Shown: positions 1,715 through 8,004 of the stretch, piece after piece
Position numbering within the stretch: position 1 is the first letter of the stretch
Layout of the letters: each line of letters opens with the position of its first letter
Origin: Treponema sp.
Lineage (GTDB): Bacteria; Spirochaetota; Spirochaetia; Treponematales; Treponemataceae
Direction: 5' to 3'
Assembly: GCA_017453705.1 (NCBI GenBank)
Contig: JAFTEK010000375.1
Span: 1-9,703 of the forward strand
Length of the DNA stretch: 9,703 nt
Notes under the pieces: generated by a model
Databases searched by the model: none
Seen by the model: only the letters and a program-made list of their open reading frames with translations
What the model was told of the DNA's origin: nothing
Program-made: the position numbers and the translations under genes

Positions 1715-1761
1715 CAAGGGAGCTGTGATAGCAACTGTATGTTCACTTTGCAGCTCCTTTG
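1715..1761. terminator. Possible hairpin at the convergent gene ends
   Basis: CAAGGGAGCTG (1715-1725) pairs with CAGCTCCTTTG (1751-1761), giving 11 pairs including one G.T, around a 25-base loop. It spans the gap between the two convergent genes and covers the stop codon of the minus-strand gene. Neither side has a clear run of T, so it may only slow polymerase or stabilise the 3' end. It is the only candidate seen for ending the minus-strand operon. Confidence 0.3.
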
Positions 1762-4559
1762 ATATTAACACCCTGCTCACTTAGCTTTGACAGGGTGTTT
1801 TCATAGACTTCAGTAGAAGATGGCTTGTTCCAATTTTCAGGCTTGAAAAGGTCGTCATGGATTGAATACCATGTTTCCTCTTCAACATCAAACTTGTCAG
1901 ATTTTCTGTTTCGCAAGGCCTTTCCTCCTTCTGTATATTCGCCGTATACGGGGTTTTTCAAGGAAATCTTTGTTATATCGTTGCCAGTGGCAGGGTTTAT
2001 AGTGTTTTCAATGAGACCCTTCACTGCAATAGATGGCACGTCGGCATTTGTCATAAATGTCTTGTCAACCTTCATGCGCCCCCTTTCGGTGAAGTCTTTT
2101 ACCATAAGCAGGCATGTAAGTTCACCTGTTGGAAGATGGGAATACCCCTCCACCTCTTTAATTCCACCTCCACATCCGTGGTCTGCTGATATGATAATCC
2201 TTGTGTTGTCGTAAGCTCCGTTTTCTTTTAAGTAATCCAGCCATTTCCCCAAGAGCTTAAAGGATGCCATGTTTACATGGTAATGTGGTTCCTGCCCATA
2301 TTTAGAGGGGCTGCTTGTTGTTATTGAAGGAACAGGCTTGTATTCAGGAACTTGGAGATAGTTTGGGCTGTGGGGCAGCAGGTTAGTAAAGAATACAAAG
2401 TTATCCCCGTCTTCGACTACCTGTGTCAACAGGGGAAGGTAGTCCAACACAGCATAGTTTTTTATTGTCTGTTCAAAGGATTCTTCCCTGAAAAAAAGCC
2501 TGTCGTTTACTGCCTGTTTGTCCAGTATATAATAGCTTATCAAATAATTCCCTTCGTCATAAAGCCTGGATCTGATCGGAGAAGGACATGCCCTTATTAT
2601 GGAGTATGGCAGGAACCGTTTCCTGTCTGTTTCAAGTTGAATACTGGAACCAAAGCCGTGTTCCTTTTTCCAGTTTTGCCAGTAGACTTCGATAGTTGTG
2701 AATGTTTTTATCTTTTCAGGATATTCGTCCATAAAGTAATAGTTGTCAAGGTAATTTGAAACAGGAAGGTCTGTCATGGACGCACTGTAGCCATTCCGTG
2801 AAAAAAGCCGAGGCAGGAGGGATATGGCTTCCTCGAACTTTTTGCACATAGGCTGTCCTTCCTTTAAATTCATTACAGGGGGAATGTATTCGTAGCCGCC
2901 GAATAAACCTGGGGAACCTGCGACAGTCCCATAACTGAATGATACCGTGTTTGGGTAGAATGTAAATCCGTCATACTGTTCATAAAGATGCGGGTCTTCC
3001 TTAAAACATTCCTCAAGGTAGGCTCCTGTCGCCCTGTCAAGCATTATGCAGAATACATTTGTTCCGGTCTTGGACAGGTTGAATATCGGATCTATTTTTT
3101 CCACAGAAACGTTTTCGGCATTCTTTCTAAGGACTGCGAGAGCTGTGTTATATCCCTGCTGTGTCTTTGCTCCTTCCACAATGGCATGTGTAGCGACAGA
3201 AATGTTTAAAATCATTATTATGGAAGCAAGCAGTTTGCTGGCCTTTTTGCGGAAAAGAAATAGTATAAGAATTCCTGTAAGGGTAATGGAGAGAAGGTTT
3301 AACAATACCGTACCCCCCCCCATGTAAAATATACCGTCTCTTTCGTATACAAGCATATCAGAGAGTATTCCATAGTCACTGGAGAAGGCATAGAAGTTTA
3401 GCAGGGCTGAAAGAAAAATGAAGGCTGCTGCTACTGAAAGAAGTGGTTTACGTTTGTCTGCCGTTATCCTATAGATGAAATATGGCCAGAGCAGAAAAAG
3501 ACCTGCGGCTTTTGCCAGTGTTGGCCAGTAAGTTAAGAAGGGCGAGCTATAGCCCTCCAGGAAGGAGAATGCTACTGGATCTGAGCCGAGAACAGAAAGA
3601 GGGATGGTTGCCCCTATGAGCAGACATAGCCCAATGCAGGACAGCAAGAATATATGTTCATGGTCTTTTGTCTTTGGAGCGCCTGTTGCTTCTTCAGGCT
3701 GTCTTTTAAAGTGAAACAGCTTTTTACTGAAAACACAGGCAAGGCATACTGCTAGTGTGAATATATAGAGAATAATCTTCTTGTATATATGGGCACGCGG
3801 CTTAAAAAAAGTCATATACAGGCATAAGGAAACGAATGCAAGGCAAACGATTGCTTTTACCCAGCGCCGGGGATTACCGCGAGCATGTATAAAATTCTTT
3901 GCCAAGGAAAACAAATTGTTTAGCGTCCAGTAGAAAACCAAACCGCTTGGTGAGCTGTAGAGCAAAATCAAGAATATCATGGCAAGACCGTATACTTGGA
4001 CTTTCTCGCGCAAGGACGCTCCCCTCGTATATATTGTTCCTGATACGATGTTTATCAGCGTCATCAATATGGGAAGGATGTTCACCGACAGGCTGCCGAT
4101 TTTGAGCATGGCATCAGGCTTCATCAGGTCGTCAATAAGTCCGAGTTTAACACCGGAAAGCTCCGGGCATTTGGAAAGAAAGTGATAGGCGGCAATGAAA
4201 AAAGGAACCTGGACTAATATGGAAAGCGAACTCCGCAAGGCATAAGCAGGGCTGTAGTGGTTTATTTCATAATACTCTGCAAGCATCATGAAACGCTCAT
4301 CTCCCTTGAATACAGCCTTTATGTGGTCAAGTCCGGGCTTCATTTTCTTTTGTATTTCCCGTTCTTCCAGCTGTCTGGCATCCGCGGCACTGTAGATTGG
4401 GAAGGTCATCAGGTTTACGAGGAGACTTACTGCTGCTATTGCCATCGGAATTGCTGCCTGCCCGGAAAAGAAATTCCTGAACAGGCAGAAGGACGTCTCA
4501 ACGATGTATTCTATAGGTTCGACAAGCAGACAATACAGTAGTTTAGCGCATAAGTCCAT
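1743..4559 (-). CDS. YidC/Oxa1-like domain fused to a polytopic membrane region and a periplasmic sulfatase-fold transferase/hydrolase
   Basis: This is a 938-residue inner-membrane protein in three parts. Residues about 10-225 match the YidC/Oxa1 core: LMTFPIY, a basic cytoplasmic loop, LVQVPFFIAAYHFL, ILPILM and SSPSGLVFYWTLNNLF. The groove arginine is replaced by Asn49. Residues about 233-462 add seven hydrophobic helices. Residues about 498-880 have the alkaline-phosphatase/sulfatase fold: Asp508 in IMLDR, likely nucleophile Thr545 in GTVAGSPGLFGG (compare GTATAVS in phosphoethanolamine transferases), His730, SADHG with Asp793 and His794, and His808. With twelve helices the positive-inside rule puts the catalytic domain in the periplasm. 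By family it could transfer phosphoglycerol, phosphoethanolamine or a similar group to an envelope glycan or lipid, or act as a sulfatase; the substrate is unknown. ATG follows the murA TAG with no gap; AGAGG (4568-4572) lies eight bases upstream. Two sampled 60-base blocks have 37% and 43% G+C against 55% in one murA block. It is the only gene here ending in TGA. Confidence 0.85.
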   Translation of the reverse strand: MDLCAKLLYCLLVEPIEYIVETSFCLFRNFFSGQAAIPMAIAAVSLLVNLMTFPIYSAADARQLEEREIQKKMKPGLDHIKAVFKGDERFMMLAEYYEINHYSPAYALRSSLSILVQVPFFIAAYHFLSKCPELSGVKLGLIDDLMKPDAMLKIGSLSVNILPILMTLINIVSGTIYTRGASLREKVQVYGLAMIFLILLYSSPSGLVFYWTLNNLFSLAKNFIHARGNPRRWVKAIVCLAFVSLCLYMTFFKPRAHIYKKIILYIFTLAVCLACVFSKKLFHFKRQPEEATGAPKTKDHEHIFLLSCIGLCLLIGATIPLSVLGSDPVAFSFLEGYSSPFLTYWPTLAKAAGLFLLWPYFIYRITADKRKPLLSVAAAFIFLSALLNFYAFSSDYGILSDMLVYERDGIFYMGGGTVLLNLLSITLTGILILFLFRKKASKLLASIIMILNISVATHAIVEGAKTQQGYNTALAVLRKNAENVSVEKIDPIFNLSKTGTNVFCIMLDRATGAYLEECFKEDPHLYEQYDGFTFYPNTVSFSYGTVAGSPGLFGGYEYIPPVMNLKEGQPMCKKFEEAISLLPRLFSRNGYSASMTDLPVSNYLDNYYFMDEYPEKIKTFTTIEVYWQNWKKEHGFGSSIQLETDRKRFLPYSIIRACPSPIRSRLYDEGNYLISYYILDKQAVNDRLFFREESFEQTIKNYAVLDYLPLLTQVVEDGDNFVFFTNLLPHSPNYLQVPEYKPVPSITTSSPSKYGQEPHYHVNMASFKLLGKWLDYLKENGAYDNTRIIISADHGCGGGIKEVEGYSHLPTGELTCLLMVKDFTERGRMKVDKTFMTNADVPSIAVKGLIENTINPATGNDITKISLKNPVYGEYTEGGKALRNRKSDKFDVEEETWYSIHDDLFKPENWNKPSSTEVYENTLSKLSEQGVNIKGAAK
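1767..1801 (+). terminator. Intrinsic terminator of the arabinofuranosidase transcript, inside the opposing coding sequence
   Basis: AACACCCTG (1767-1775) pairs perfectly with CAGGGTGTT (1791-1799). TCA/TGA (1777-1779 with 1788-1790) extends the stem past a bulged C. It is followed by a short T run (1798-1801). The hairpin starts 63 bases after the arabinofuranosidase stop codon, and its antisense strand encodes the last residues (about 920-931) of the YidC/sulfatase fusion. On the minus strand the hairpin is followed by TTAATAT, a weaker tail. Confidence 0.65.
3313..3321 (-). repeat. Homopolymeric poly-G tract (G9 on the coding strand)
   Basis: Nine consecutive C on the plus strand read as ATG GGG GGG GGT in the YidC/sulfatase gene (Met413 and Gly414-416, start of the eleventh membrane helix). 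Loss of one G gives a TAA after four more codons. Gain of one G gives a TAA about 55 codons on. Either change removes the whole sulfatase-fold domain. Poly-G tracts of this size are slippage-prone contingency sites in treponemes and many other bacteria. Confidence 0.7.
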
Positions 4560-5843
4560 CTACTTGACCTCTACCCGCTTAATGTGAGCGCCGAGTGACT
4601 GCAGCCGTTCGACCAGCTGCTCATAGCCACGCTCTATCTGGTATACGTTGCTTATGCGGCTCTCGCCTCTGGCAGACAGGGCTGCGATGACCATCGCCAT
4701 TCCTGCACGGACATCGGGAGAGACCAGATGCTCCCCATGCAGGGCACAAGGACCGGAGATGACGGCCCGGTGGGGGTCGCAAAGGGTGATTCTGGCACCC
4801 ATGCTTATCAGTTTGTCCACAAAGAACATGCGGCTCTCGAACATCTTTTCAAAAACAAGAACAGTGCCTTCCACCTGGGTTGCGACGACGACCATTATGG
4901 AAGTCAAATCCGGCGGAAAACCCGGCCAGGGGGCATCGTCTATCTTGGGTATCATGCCGCCCAAGTCTGCGTTTACTTTGAGTTTTTGGTCGGAGGAGAC
5001 CGTCAGGGTTGTTCCGTCTATGCTCCACTGAATGCCCAGTTTGCCAAAGGCTATCTTTAGGGGGCGCATCTCTTTGGGGCGGATTCCGTGGATTTCCACA
5101 GAACCCCCTGTACATGCTGCAAGGCCAATGTAGGAGCCTATCTCCATGTAGTCCGGGCCAATCGTGAAGTCTGTTCCTGCAAGCTTTTTTACTCCCTCTA
5201 TGTGAAGTATATTGCTGCCAATGCCCGTTATCTTTGCGCCCATCTGGTTGAGCATATCGCACAAATCTTGTATATGCGGCTCACTGGCGGCATTTGTTAT
5301 GTCAGTGTGTCCTTCGGCGAGGACGGCTGCCATTATCGCGTTTTCCGTTGCGGTGACAGAGGCTTCATCAAGGAATATGTCTGTTCCCACCAGCTTGTTG
5401 GCCGTGAACTCAAACTTTCCGTCTGTGGATATTCTGGCTCCTAGTTCTTCCAGTGCCAAAAAATGGGTGTCCAGCCTCCTGCGGCCTATGACATCTCCCC
5501 CTGGTGGCTGCATTACCGCCTTGCCCATTCTGGCTACGAGGGGGCCTGCAAAAAGGATGGACGCACGGATTTTCTTGCTCATCTGAGCGGGAATGTTGGC
5601 GGAGTTTATTCTGGCGGCATCTATCTTCCAGGCATGATCACCCAAGCTCTCCACGCCGACTCCCAGGGAAGTCAGAATCTGGAGCATTACATTGGTGTCC
5701 TCTATGTCAGGAATGTTTCTTAGGATGACAGGTTCCCTTGTAAGCAGTGTCGCCGCAATGCAGGGAAGGGCTGCGTTCTTGTTGCCGCTTGCAGTTATGC
5801 TTCCTTTTATGGGGAAACCGCCTTCTACCTGGTATTCGTACAT
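4560..5843 (-). CDS. murA: UDP-N-acetylglucosamine 1-carboxyvinyltransferase
   Basis: MurA catalyses the first committed step of peptidoglycan synthesis, transferring enolpyruvate from phosphoenolpyruvate to UDP-GlcNAc in the cytoplasm. The 427-residue length is normal. Visible landmarks are Lys22-Asn23 in SGNKNAAL, the mobile active-site loop PPGGDVIGRRRLD (113-125), and PWPGFPPD with Asp312, equivalent to the E. coli catalytic Asp305. The residue matching E. coli Cys115 is Asp117. This is the natural variant found in Mycobacterium, Chlamydia and Borrelia MurA, which is not alkylated by fosfomycin, so intrinsic resistance of the target is expected. The start codon directly abuts the lgt stop (TAG-ATG) and has a strong Shine-Dalgarno five bases upstream. 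The 3' end abuts the YidC/sulfatase ATG in the same way, so the three genes are likely translationally coupled. Confidence 0.97.
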   Translation of the reverse strand: MYEYQVEGGFPIKGSITASGNKNAALPCIAATLLTREPVILRNIPDIEDTNVMLQILTSLGVGVESLGDHAWKIDAARINSANIPAQMSKKIRASILFAGPLVARMGKAVMQPPGGDVIGRRRLDTHFLALEELGARISTDGKFEFTANKLVGTDIFLDEASVTATENAIMAAVLAEGHTDITNAASEPHIQDLCDMLNQMGAKITGIGSNILHIEGVKKLAGTDFTIGPDYMEIGSYIGLAACTGGSVEIHGIRPKEMRPLKIAFGKLGIQWSIDGTTLTVSSDQKLKVNADLGGMIPKIDDAPWPGFPPDLTSIMVVVATQVEGTVLVFEKMFESRMFFVDKLISMGARITLCDPHRAVISGPCALHGEHLVSPDVRAGMAMVIAALSARGESRISNVYQIERGYEQLVERLQSLGAHIKRVEVK

Positions 5844-6854
5844 CTAGGCCTCCTTCCGTGAGCGTAGGTATAGGACAAGCATCAGTATAAGGCAGCCGAA
5901 TATCATCATGGCGCAGAGGATTTGTCCAGTAGAGATGTCCAAGAGGGATGTGTTCCGATAAATTGCGTGAGCTTCCTCTCCTGCTGTCAGGTCTGCGGAG
6001 GACAGGCGGAAGCCCAGGTCTGAGTCCGGCTGGCGGAAGTATTCGACCACAAAGCGGGCTGTCCCATAACCTATCGCATACATACAGCCTAAAAATCCAT
6101 CGAATGGTTTTCTTTTTCTAAGGAACCATAGGAGGGCAAATAACACGATTCCTTCCAGAAAGGCTTCGTAGAGCTGGCTGGGATGGCGGGGCAGGTTGAC
6201 AAGTTTCTCTCCTGCCGCAAGTGTCATGCCGCAGCGGGACGCAAAGTCCTGCACCCAGTCAATGCTTGCGGAAAAGGTCTCGCCTGCAAGCTTTGCCCGT
6301 GGAAAGACCACTCCCCATGGAACGGTTGTAATCCTGCCGTAAAGCTCCCCGTTCATAAAGTTGCCTATACGTCCGAATGTGTAGCCCAAGGGGATGGCAA
6401 CGCACATCGCATCAACCCACTTCCACAGGGGTTTTTTGTGGACGGCGCACCAGAGAATCATCCCCAGGAGACCTCCGATAAAGCCCCCGTGGTATGACAT
6501 ACCTGCAAAACCGCTGAACTTGCGGGTCAGCGGGTCAAATGGCCAGAAAATTAACCAAGGTTTTTTAAGGTAGTCCCCGCTCGTGTCGTAGACCAGGCAG
6601 GAGAAAATCCTCGCTCCCAAAAGGAGCATTACGATTCCCCATGCGATGAAGCTGAATATATCATCTTCGCTCGCCTTGTAGCCTTCTGTATCCAGCGCAC
6701 CTTCCCGCATTTGCTTTTTGAGTATAAGGAAGGCTGTCGTGAAGGCAAAGACATACATGAGGCCGTACCAGCGGATAAGCCCCAGCACTGGTACTCCAGG
6801 GAAAATTTCTGGCTGAATCCAAGATGGATACTCTATATATAGAAGATTATGCAT
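5844..6854 (-). CDS. lgt: Phosphatidylglycerol-prolipoprotein diacylglyceryl transferase
   Basis: Lgt is an inner-membrane enzyme that transfers diacylglycerol from phosphatidylglycerol to the lipobox cysteine of prolipoproteins, the first step of lipoprotein maturation. With start 6854 the protein has 336 residues. Landmarks are WYGLMY (29-34), HGGFIGG with His122, the signature GRIGNFMNGELYGR with Arg162, Asn165 and Glu170, HPSQLYE (224-230), and RFVVEYFRQPD with Arg267 and Glu271. All correspond to residues essential in E. coli Lgt. It is longer than E. coli Lgt (about 290) because of insertions at roughly 188-220 and 279-308. An upstream in-frame ATG at 6893 would add 13 residues and overlap the ATPase gene. 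I prefer 6854: it lies four bases after the ATPase stop, has AAGG upstream, and gives the usual Lgt N-terminus. Confidence 0.96.
   Translation of the reverse strand: MHNLLYIEYPSWIQPEIFPGVPVLGLIRWYGLMYVFAFTTAFLILKKQMREGALDTEGYKASEDDIFSFIAWGIVMLLLGARIFSCLVYDTSGDYLKKPWLIFWPFDPLTRKFSGFAGMSYHGGFIGGLLGMILWCAVHKKPLWKWVDAMCVAIPLGYTFGRIGNFMNGELYGRITTVPWGVVFPRAKLAGETFSASIDWVQDFASRCGMTLAAGEKLVNLPRHPSQLYEAFLEGIVLFALLWFLRKRKPFDGFLGCMYAIGYGTARFVVEYFRQPDSDLGFRLSSADLTAGEEAHAIYRNTSLLDISTGQILCAMMIFGCLILMLVLYLRSRKEA
5849..5855 (-). promoter_or_regulatory. Strong Shine-Dalgarno sequence of murA
   Basis: AAGGAGG lies five bases before the murA ATG and encodes the final Lys-Glu-Ala codons of lgt. It is the best ribosome binding site in the window and fixes the murA start at 5843. 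It suggests murA is translated efficiently by itself as well as by coupling to lgt. Confidence 0.85.
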
Positions 6855-6858
6855 GGTT

Positions 6859-8004
6859 CTAAACCTTGTAGCCCTTTTTGGCCGCGTCCACAAGTTTCTT
6901 TTTGAGCAGGTTGTTCTCGTTTCGTAGCTGGGTCATTTCATATTGCTGCTGTCGCAATAGCTCCACAAGTTCCCCAGTTGTCAGTGCTCCGCTGCCAGTA
7001 AGCTCTTCGACATAAGCCATCTTTGCGGAGAAGTCATCTGAAGCTTCCTCGCTGGCGAGTTCGAATGTCTGGTCGGATACCTGGGTCATGTCGTAGGCAT
7101 CGTCAAATGAAAGGGATTCGTCCTGCTTAATCTTCTCGGCTATGCGGTATATTGCCTGTGCTATGACAGACTGAGGCTTGTATATTATGACCGGTAGACG
7201 GGAGGACAAAGCCTTGTCCTGCATTGTGTCACGGTAAACAACTCCCAGGTGTTCTATGTCCAGCCCCAGGAACTGACGGCAGGAATGTCTTATCTTTATG
7301 GCTCTGTCCGCATCCTTGGGGTCGTCTATCATGTTCAGTATCAGGCGGGGACGGAACTTCTTCATGCGGGACTCAAACAGCTCGGCACTTGGTCTGTCCA
7401 CTGCTTTCAGCTCCTCTATGAGCTTGGGGATGTAGACTTTTTGCATGGCCTGGGAATTTGTCCTCATGTTCTCCAGGTACTTGTAGGCGGGGCTGCCCTT
7501 CTTGAAAGTGTTGTACATCATGCGGAATACTACGTTCTTTAGGAAGAGGTATCCGTTGAGGATTGCTGTTACAGTTGGAGCCGTGACAACGATACCCTGC
7601 GGGGACAGCATGAACATGTCCAATATCGTAAGGTGGGTTCCTGCCCCCAGGTCAAGAATAAGGTAATCTGCGTCTATCGAAGAGAACTCACGGATAAGCT
7701 CGTTTTTCTTAGCCGCCTTGAGTGATGTGAGGCCGGGAATCTCCGAGTCGCCTGCAATAAAGGATACGTTTTCGTAGTCCGTCGGCTCAATAAGTTCTTT
7801 GAATGTTCCCTGCCCAGAAAGGAAGGTTCCTATGCCCTTCTTTGAAGATGTCTGACCTATGACTAGGTGCAGGTTTGATGCCCCCAGATCCAAATCTACG
7901 AGGACGACCTTTTTCCCTGCCTGTCCCAGGGCTATGGCAAGGTTCGCGCTCAAAAGGCTCTTGCCAACGCCGCCTTTGCCTGAGGCAACTGGTATAATCT
8001 GCAT
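6859..8004 (-). CDS. MinD/ParA-family P-loop ATPase with C-terminal coiled coil
   Basis: This is a 381-residue ATPase of the MinD/ParA/FlhG class. The deviant Walker A ASGKGGVGKS (7-16) has the signature Lys10 and the P-loop Lys15. VDLDLGASN (36-44) is the switch I/A' motif and LILDLGAG (115-122) is Walker B with Asp118. The wording around Walker B and the TAPTVTAILNGY segment resemble FlhG/MinD rather than plasmid ParA. Residues about 165-220 form an insertion. Residues about 343-377 are a heptad-like, charged coiled coil, in place of the amphipathic membrane-targeting helix that ends MinD. Such ATPases position or count cell-surface assemblies (division site, flagella, chromosome). No flagellar or min gene is adjacent; its partner is unknown. 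The start is fixed by the family N-terminus beginning just before the P-loop. There is no Shine-Dalgarno, and a promoter sits immediately upstream. Confidence 0.88.
   Translation of the reverse strand: MQIIPVASGKGGVGKSLLSANLAIALGQAGKKVVLVDLDLGASNLHLVIGQTSSKKGIGTFLSGQGTFKELIEPTDYENVSFIAGDSEIPGLTSLKAAKKNELIREFSSIDADYLILDLGAGTHLTILDMFMLSPQGIVVTAPTVTAILNGYLFLKNVVFRMMYNTFKKGSPAYKYLENMRTNSQAMQKVYIPKLIEELKAVDRPSAELFESRMKKFRPRLILNMIDDPKDADRAIKIRHSCRQFLGLDIEHLGVVYRDTMQDKALSSRLPVIIYKPQSVIAQAIYRIAEKIKQDESLSFDDAYDMTQVSDQTFELASEEASDDFSAKMAYVEELTGSGALTTGELVELLRQQQYEMTQLRNENNLLKKKLVDAAKKGYKV

Follow-up and report, generated by a model that had tools for sequence, protein, structure and literature searches.

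The stretch of DNA analysed here (the whole 9,703 nucleotides of Treponema sp. contig JAFTEK010000375.1, hereafter the window) carries a minus-strand gene that joins a YidC/Oxa1-type domain to a sulfatase-fold domain in a single uninterrupted frame. This fusion, claimed by an original prediction, is confirmed by the frame itself, by a PF02096 match and by full-length homologues. The layout is neither rare nor confined to treponemes, and is mostly annotated as YidC insertase. There is about an even chance that its carriers form a multi-copy family of inner-membrane proteins that transfer phosphate or phosphonate groups to surface glycans outside the membrane, as predicted here; in this reading the likely task of the YidC part is to present or flip a lipid-linked substrate.

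The N-terminal domain of the window protein has the five-helix YidC fold and scores 77.9 bits against PF02096, above the curated Pfam cut-off of 35. The NCBIfam model TIGR03592 (yidC_oxa1_cterm) gives 77.8 bits, under its cut-off of 84.3. PF02096 and PF00884 had been expected on one chain; the former is over its cut-off, the latter, with 21.2 bits, under its cut-off of 25, and some homologues have a precomputed PF00884 match. According to structure and profile matches, the C-terminal part is predicted to be a periplasmic domain of the alkaline-phosphatase superfamily. Its placement outside, also proposed earlier, agrees with the 12 helices predicted from hydropathy and with the excess of lysine and arginine in inside loops (18 per 85 residues) over outside loops (9 per 112, loop limits being hand-chosen). 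A structure search with the model aligns PbgA (6xlp_A) over residues 289-935 at 15.4 Å. Residues 297-481 searched alone return only weak structural matches; in the model they possibly resemble the five-helix transmembrane part of YejM, EptA, and LtaS.

Residue conservation was computed from 124 homologous open reading frames (ORFs) of at least 860 amino acids (aa) and the query, 125 rows in total. D508, T545, H730, D793, H794, K821, and D840 are invariant (125/125); D508, T545, D793, and H794 are predicted to supply a threonine nucleophile with Asp and His metal ligands. A profile of 40 catalytic domains searched against the PDB matches phosphonate monoester hydrolase, sulfatases, LtaS, and LtaP, and the printed alignments match the DHG motif; D508 aligns with the N-terminal strand of the hydrolase at 2.6 bits, which is not significant. 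From the fold, the motif order, and the profile alignments, we infer that T545 is the counterpart of the LtaS threonine. The metal ligands of Listeria LtaS are Glu, Thr, Asp, and His, and a further His, Trp, and Arg hold the phosphate (PMC4192460); EptA, MCR, and YejM likewise have a catalytic threonine (PMC7576196). LtaS/LtaP, EptA/MCR, and YejM/PbgA share with the family a periplasmic domain of alkaline-phosphatase fold that follows membrane helices and has a conserved Thr and an Asp-His motif, at 11-17% identity in structural alignments. In contrast to LtaS, EptA, and YejM, the family has an N-terminal YidC fold, two linker helices, and a TagB/F gene partner. D508 stands where LtaS and EptA have Glu; YejM has Asp268.

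Formylglycine sulfatases carry a C/S-x-P-x-R signature with a Cys or Ser nucleophile. A sulfatase of this type was considered as a candidate and rejected, given that PF00884 stays under its cut-off, that the presumed nucleophile is Thr in 125/125 and that the signature is not found. Of the earlier label 'sulfatase', the fold therefore stands and the identity does not, the presumed nucleophile being Thr as in LtaS and EptA.

A protein search scored 7,997 candidates and returned 3,193 matches at E ≤ 0.001; it took proteins from about 516 aa up, and some of these matches may be ordinary YidC. The best 120 of the 3,193 (window protein included) are all 846-948 aa long and all have PF02096, and those with a name are mostly called YidC/Oxa1-type insertase, with a few 'membrane protein' or hypothetical entries. 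In a scan of named genomes, at least 562 of 586 candidate stretches were confirmed and 78 loci kept, of which 53 bear the titles of spirochaetes (Treponema or others) and 25 those of Firmicutes. These 78 loci yield 121 ORFs of at least 860 aa that align across both domains, and 43 of the loci hold two or more fusion copies or pieces, with a maximum of eight. A class-wide sample gives a match at E ≤ 1e-30 in 29 of 148 genomes. The spirochaete survey proposed with the original prediction thus finds the architecture widely, and in Firmicutes-titled loci as well. The statement that no characterised protein of this layout was known is supported as well: a literature search at the level of titles and abstract starts found no description of a YidC plus alkaline-phosphatase-fold architecture.

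The window genome is a 393-contig draft (72% complete), which would favour an assembly or annotation join of two genes. This explanation is given virtually no weight, being refuted by the 120 listed homologues and by full-length copies in isolate-titled records (Treponema bryantii B25 and Schwartzia succinivorans DSM 10502).

As for individual loci, a Clostridiales metagenome-assembled genome (L070) holds eight fusion ORFs or pieces within about 20 kb, and nine copies of full size plus one partial match accompany a canonical yidC in the genome of L087 (YRB3002, G185). In the distant spirochaete G059, a 1,090-aa ORF with a YidC-like start (L096, 3861-7133) is matched by the query in BLASTP over the YidC part only; this genome has several such long frames.

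The fusion genes mostly coexist with ordinary yidC. The window's own genome has a separate canonical yidC, as the original prediction suggested looking for (an open frame of 615 aa, 200.6 bits). The same genome has four fusion genes of full size, that of the window among them, which score 70-82 bits, and two C-terminal fusion pieces at contig edges. Across a set of 39 genomes (the own genome and 38 relatives), canonical yidC was found once each in 34 genomes and 48 fusion genes in 23. Here 'fused' means a PF02096 score of 60-100 bits; 45 of the 48 frames are at least 846 aa long and the other three, which are shorter, are classed by score. The counts omit three weak PF02096 rows (two G020 fragments at 29.9 bits and G024 at 25.2 bits) and three PF13714 rows below cut-off. 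In further genomes, a separate canonical yidC is present in 13 of 14.

In comparison with YidC/Oxa1 insertases (Bacillus halodurans YidC 3wo7 and E. coli YidC), the fold of residues 1-228 and the C-terminal YW region are alike. The family differs in its groove, where Arg/Lys is replaced mostly by N/T/S, in an extra basic residue (R109), in the fused enzyme-type domain, in its separate position in the tree, and in its several copies beside canonical yidC. The groove column (N49) corresponds to E. coli R366, the YidC groove arginine; it holds T, N, S, or Q in 125/125 family rows and a basic residue in 0/125, whereas 12 of the 14 canonical rows with a residue there carry K or R. Conversely, the R109 column is R or K in 124/125 and S or G in 14/14 canonical rows. 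The YW motif (Y210, W211) is present in 125/125 and kept in the canonical rows that reach that region. Seven clostridial canonical rows were added to these residue counts; L113 has no residue in the groove column, and several rows end early downstream. A 50-row tree sets the YidC domains of the family, 39 fused and three stand-alone, apart from the eight canonical domains that it includes (support 100/100); the stand-alone and fused domains group together on a long branch. This tree includes 8 of 15 canonical rows, the seven clostridial ones having been missed by BLASTP; its 39 fused rows are a random sample plus the own copies, and L106, L008, and L126 form long branches.

These comparisons bear on the possibility that the YidC domain functions as an insertase or chaperone dedicated to the membrane part of the fused enzyme or to a partner TagB/F protein. 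The well-preserved fold and the invariant YW motif speak for it, as do YidC-only genes beside TagB/F, two of which, when scanned, pass the NCBIfam insertase-domain cut-off. However, the groove positive charge is missing throughout the family, canonical yidC is nearly always encoded separately in the further genomes, and the family groups apart on a long branch. Such membrane enzymes normally rely on SecYEG and the housekeeping YidC. An insertase role is therefore considered quite unlikely.

A link to glycan synthesis is given by PF04464, the family of TagB/TagF CDP-polyol (cytidine diphosphate-polyol) phosphotransferases, which are gene partners of the fusion family and not its homologues. Two types occur in the 39 genomes: a short type (24-51 bits, open frames mostly 411-454 aa) and a long type (184-257 bits). 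The short type is present in 22 of 23 genomes with a fusion and in 1 of 16 without (Fisher p 1e-8, although the genomes are not independent, 23 of the 38 relatives being congeners of the window genome). It lies within 10 kb of 37 of the 48 fused genes, compared with 0 of 34 canonical yidC genes, and 37 of 41 such fusion pairs are on the same strand. No fusion gene was found within 10 kb of any of the five long-type genes. Across the loci, TagB/F lies at most 400 bp from 57 of 141 fused ORFs (a number that includes pieces), always on the same strand (57/57), and TagB/F occurs in 19 of the 25 Firmicutes-titled and 36 of the 53 spirochaete-titled loci. Of the four PF04464 genes in the own genome, three are clustered with a fusion gene; the frames overlap on contigs C356 and C186, and two genes intervene on C182.

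The two parts of the fusion also occur as separate genes. YidC-only genes of 226-229 aa stand beside TagB/F in three genomes, all of which also carry ordinary yidC (L093, L094, and L095), and enzyme-only genes are found in two of these clusters. The 229-aa YidC-only frame of L093, taken from its earliest possible start, shares one base with the end of a TagB/F frame; upstream of them, in the same orientation, lie a gene of cytidylyltransferase type and an enzyme-only gene of 721 aa that passes PF00884 with 29.3 bits. In L095 this overlap recurs, and a full fusion is close by. Two ORFs of L094 match TagB/F, with a YidC-only gene adjoining them; this locus also has a PntC-like gene and, some 6.5 kb beyond on the same strand, a 739-aa enzyme-only gene. 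Split homologues had been named as something that would speak against the fusion. Two-gene forms do exist; in other genomes the two genes stand separately within one cluster, which is taken as support for a functional link. That clusters of one kind hold both fused and separate forms argues that the YidC part serves the glycan pathway. The earlier suggestion that this part handles a glycan or lipid substrate has circumstantial support from TagB/F linkage, split genes, and the lost groove charge.

The same adjacency and the overlap with YidC-only genes, together with nearby polysaccharide genes (glycosyltransferases, an epimerase family, and GHMP kinases), are also consistent with a fused protein that flips a whole TagB/F-made lipid-linked glycan polymer, its catalytic domain ligating the polymer to an outer anchor. 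Teichoic-type polymers, however, usually leave the cell through ABC transporters and are attached by LCP enzymes, and we know of no precedent for ligation by an alkaline-phosphatase fold; polymer flipping is considered very unlikely.

Phosphonate genes form a second group of neighbours. Beside own-genome paralogues are phosphoenolpyruvate (PEP) mutase fused to a cytidylyltransferase-like domain and a LicC/PntC-like nucleotidyltransferase; PEP mutase belongs to the cluster of two of the paralogues (C182 and C186). Phosphonopyruvate decarboxylase beside a contig-edge paralogue reaches 469.9 bits with TIGR03297 (cut-off 312.5). A neighbouring iron-containing alcohol dehydrogenase stays under every NCBIfam cut-off (its best scores being 141.6 bits for ErcA and 137.0 for the phosphonate-type PsrA). 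The fourth TagB/F gene of this genome adjoins a nucleotidyltransferase-aminotransferase fusion, presumably the layout of Treponema denticola PntC. The genome thus has, beside paralogues or TagB/F, several genes reminiscent of the pnt pathway; unlike in that pathway, PEP mutase is near a minority of fusion copies, and phosphonates look like one chemistry among several. In the available text of PMC6697681, the cytidylyltransferase step is shown for a T. denticola enzyme, the steps after nucleotidyl activation are called enigmatic and not established, and no YidC-fused protein is met.

A TagB/F gene adjoins a nucleotidyltransferase/aminotransferase class V fusion in L100 (3293-5971); in L011, three upstream genes of like appearance (judged by eye) are followed instead by a relative of the window gene with 65% identity. 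Three cytidylyltransferase-like/PEP mutase fusions occur in one genome (L006, 2008-3273 and 7323-8624; L008, 3322-4422), and their Fom1-like layout suggests, by analogy, phosphonates activated with cytidine monophosphate (CMP).

These neighbours also bear on a rival reading in which the catalytic domain is a hydrolase, trimming or recycling lipids or glycans that carry phosphate, as is reported for YejM, and the YidC part is a membrane sensor or anchor. This is judged unlikely: the observed linkage is to biosynthetic genes (TagB/F, nucleotidyltransferases, PEP mutase), and arrays of divergent copies seem better suited to substrate-specific decoration.

Under the preferred transferase reading, a cytoplasmic TagB/F-type enzyme would first load a CDP- or CMP-activated alcohol onto a lipid-linked carrier, as gene linkage suggests; the alcohol would be a polyol phosphate or, in some clusters, a phosphonate. 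The YidC groove, lacking the usual insertase positive charge, may then hold the lipid or let it reach the outer leaflet. Finally, periplasmic T545 would attack at the D508/D793/H794 metal site, forming a phospho- or phosphono-threonine from which the group would pass to the glycan; the conservation is observed, and the chemistry is modelled on LtaS and EptA. The more specific proposal that spirochaetes and clostridia turned a YidC/Oxa1 fold into a loader of lipid-linked glycans, with TagB/F charging the carrier, the groove flipping it and the phosphotransferase domain delivering phosphate or phosphonate to the surface, is held tentatively and at less than even confidence. Lipid handling by YidC has published support, as lipid scrambling in liposomes is described for E. 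coli YidC, yeast Oxa1, and Get1 (PMC10491306).

Several results weigh against the transferase reading. All Oxa1-family insertases tested in PMC10491306 scramble, so this background is permissive and not family-specific. The YidC-only proteins of L093 and L094 pass TIGR03592 (102.0 and 96.2 bits, cut-off 84.3), and 2 of the 14 canonical rows likewise lack the groove charge. The groove basic residue is not strictly essential in every YidC. No canonical yidC was found in 3 of the 23 fusion genomes (drafts G003, G012, and G023), so that an insertase role keeps a formal standing there. In the catalytic half, the PF00884 score of the window protein is below threshold, and the five-helix region alone has no clear structural match. 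As for linkage, short-type PF04464 is absent within 10 kb of 11 of the 48 fused genes, and PEP mutase is within 10 kb of just 13 of the 48. Further, 82 loci were taken, of which one had no focal ORF in ORF calling and several share an assembly and hence are not independent; TagB/F is absent from 23 of the 81 compared, several being short contigs. Nucleotidyl genes occur in 5 of the 25 Firmicutes loci, phosphonate genes being a minority partner. Finally, no TagB/F gene is present on the 9.7-kb contig of the window copy.

The coordinates of the window features are collected in Table 1. Between 8004 and 4559 the minus strand holds a tight run of a MinD-like ATPase gene, lgt, murA, and the fusion gene; the last two start directly after the preceding stop codon, and the run is probably co-transcribed in the source species. 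The position after lgt and murA had been offered as a functional pointer; neither was matched (BLASTP, E ≤ 1e-8) in the other 81 loci, which leaves that argument unsupported. No PEP mutase was found on the window contig. As the contig has lgt and murA and no TagB/F, the role of the window copy is assigned by family. An alpha-L-arabinofuranosidase gene on the plus strand (189-1703), convergent with the fusion gene, fits a treponeme that degrades plant polysaccharides.

Table 1. Features of the window, with the basis of each assignment
Feature	Position	Strand	Basis
YidC/phosphotransferase-fold fusion gene, 938 aa	1743..4559	-	frame; Pfam; homologues similar in length
YidC/Oxa1-fold domain, residues 1-228	3876..4559	-	
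N49, position of YidC groove arginine	4413..4415	-	pairwise alignment with E. coli R366
R109, basic, start of second YidC membrane helix	4233..4235	-	alignment of 125; canonical rows differ
Two linker membrane helices, residues 230-276	3732..3872	-	model; hydropathy
Five-helix membrane region, residues 297-481	3117..3671	-	model; weak structural matches
Alkaline-phosphatase/sulfatase-fold catalytic domain, residues 498-937, predicted periplasmic	1749..3068	-	structure and profile matches
D508, predicted metal ligand	3036..3038	-	125/125; weak profile alignment
T545, predicted nucleophile	2925..2927	-	Thr in 125/125
H730, predicted phosphate-binding His	2370..2372	-	125/125
D793-H794, predicted metal ligands (DHG motif)	2178..2183	-	125/125; aligns with 2w8s DHG motif
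Segment with invariant K821 and D840	2040..2099	-	each 125/125
murA	4560..5843	-	TIGR01072 513.6 bits, over cut-off; TAG stop directly before fusion-gene ATG
lgt	5844..6893	-	TIGR00544 226.8 bits, over cut-off; stop codon directly before murA ATG
MinD/ParA-like ATPase	6859..8004	-	overlaps start of lgt frame; profile scans

Treponeme envelopes lack classical lipopolysaccharide, and the family is a testable candidate both for the late steps of phosphonate tailoring and for polyol-phosphate decoration in treponemes. If the loader proposal is true, it would fill in a late step so far missing from the tailoring of surfaces with phosphonates and polyol phosphates, each of the many divergent copies perhaps producing a chemistry of its own. 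The lipid scrambling by canonical YidC in vitro (PMC10491306) would gain a physiological counterpart. A widespread family annotated as 'YidC insertase' would then consist of surface-glycan enzymes, in which a protein-insertion fold has a dedicated lipid job.

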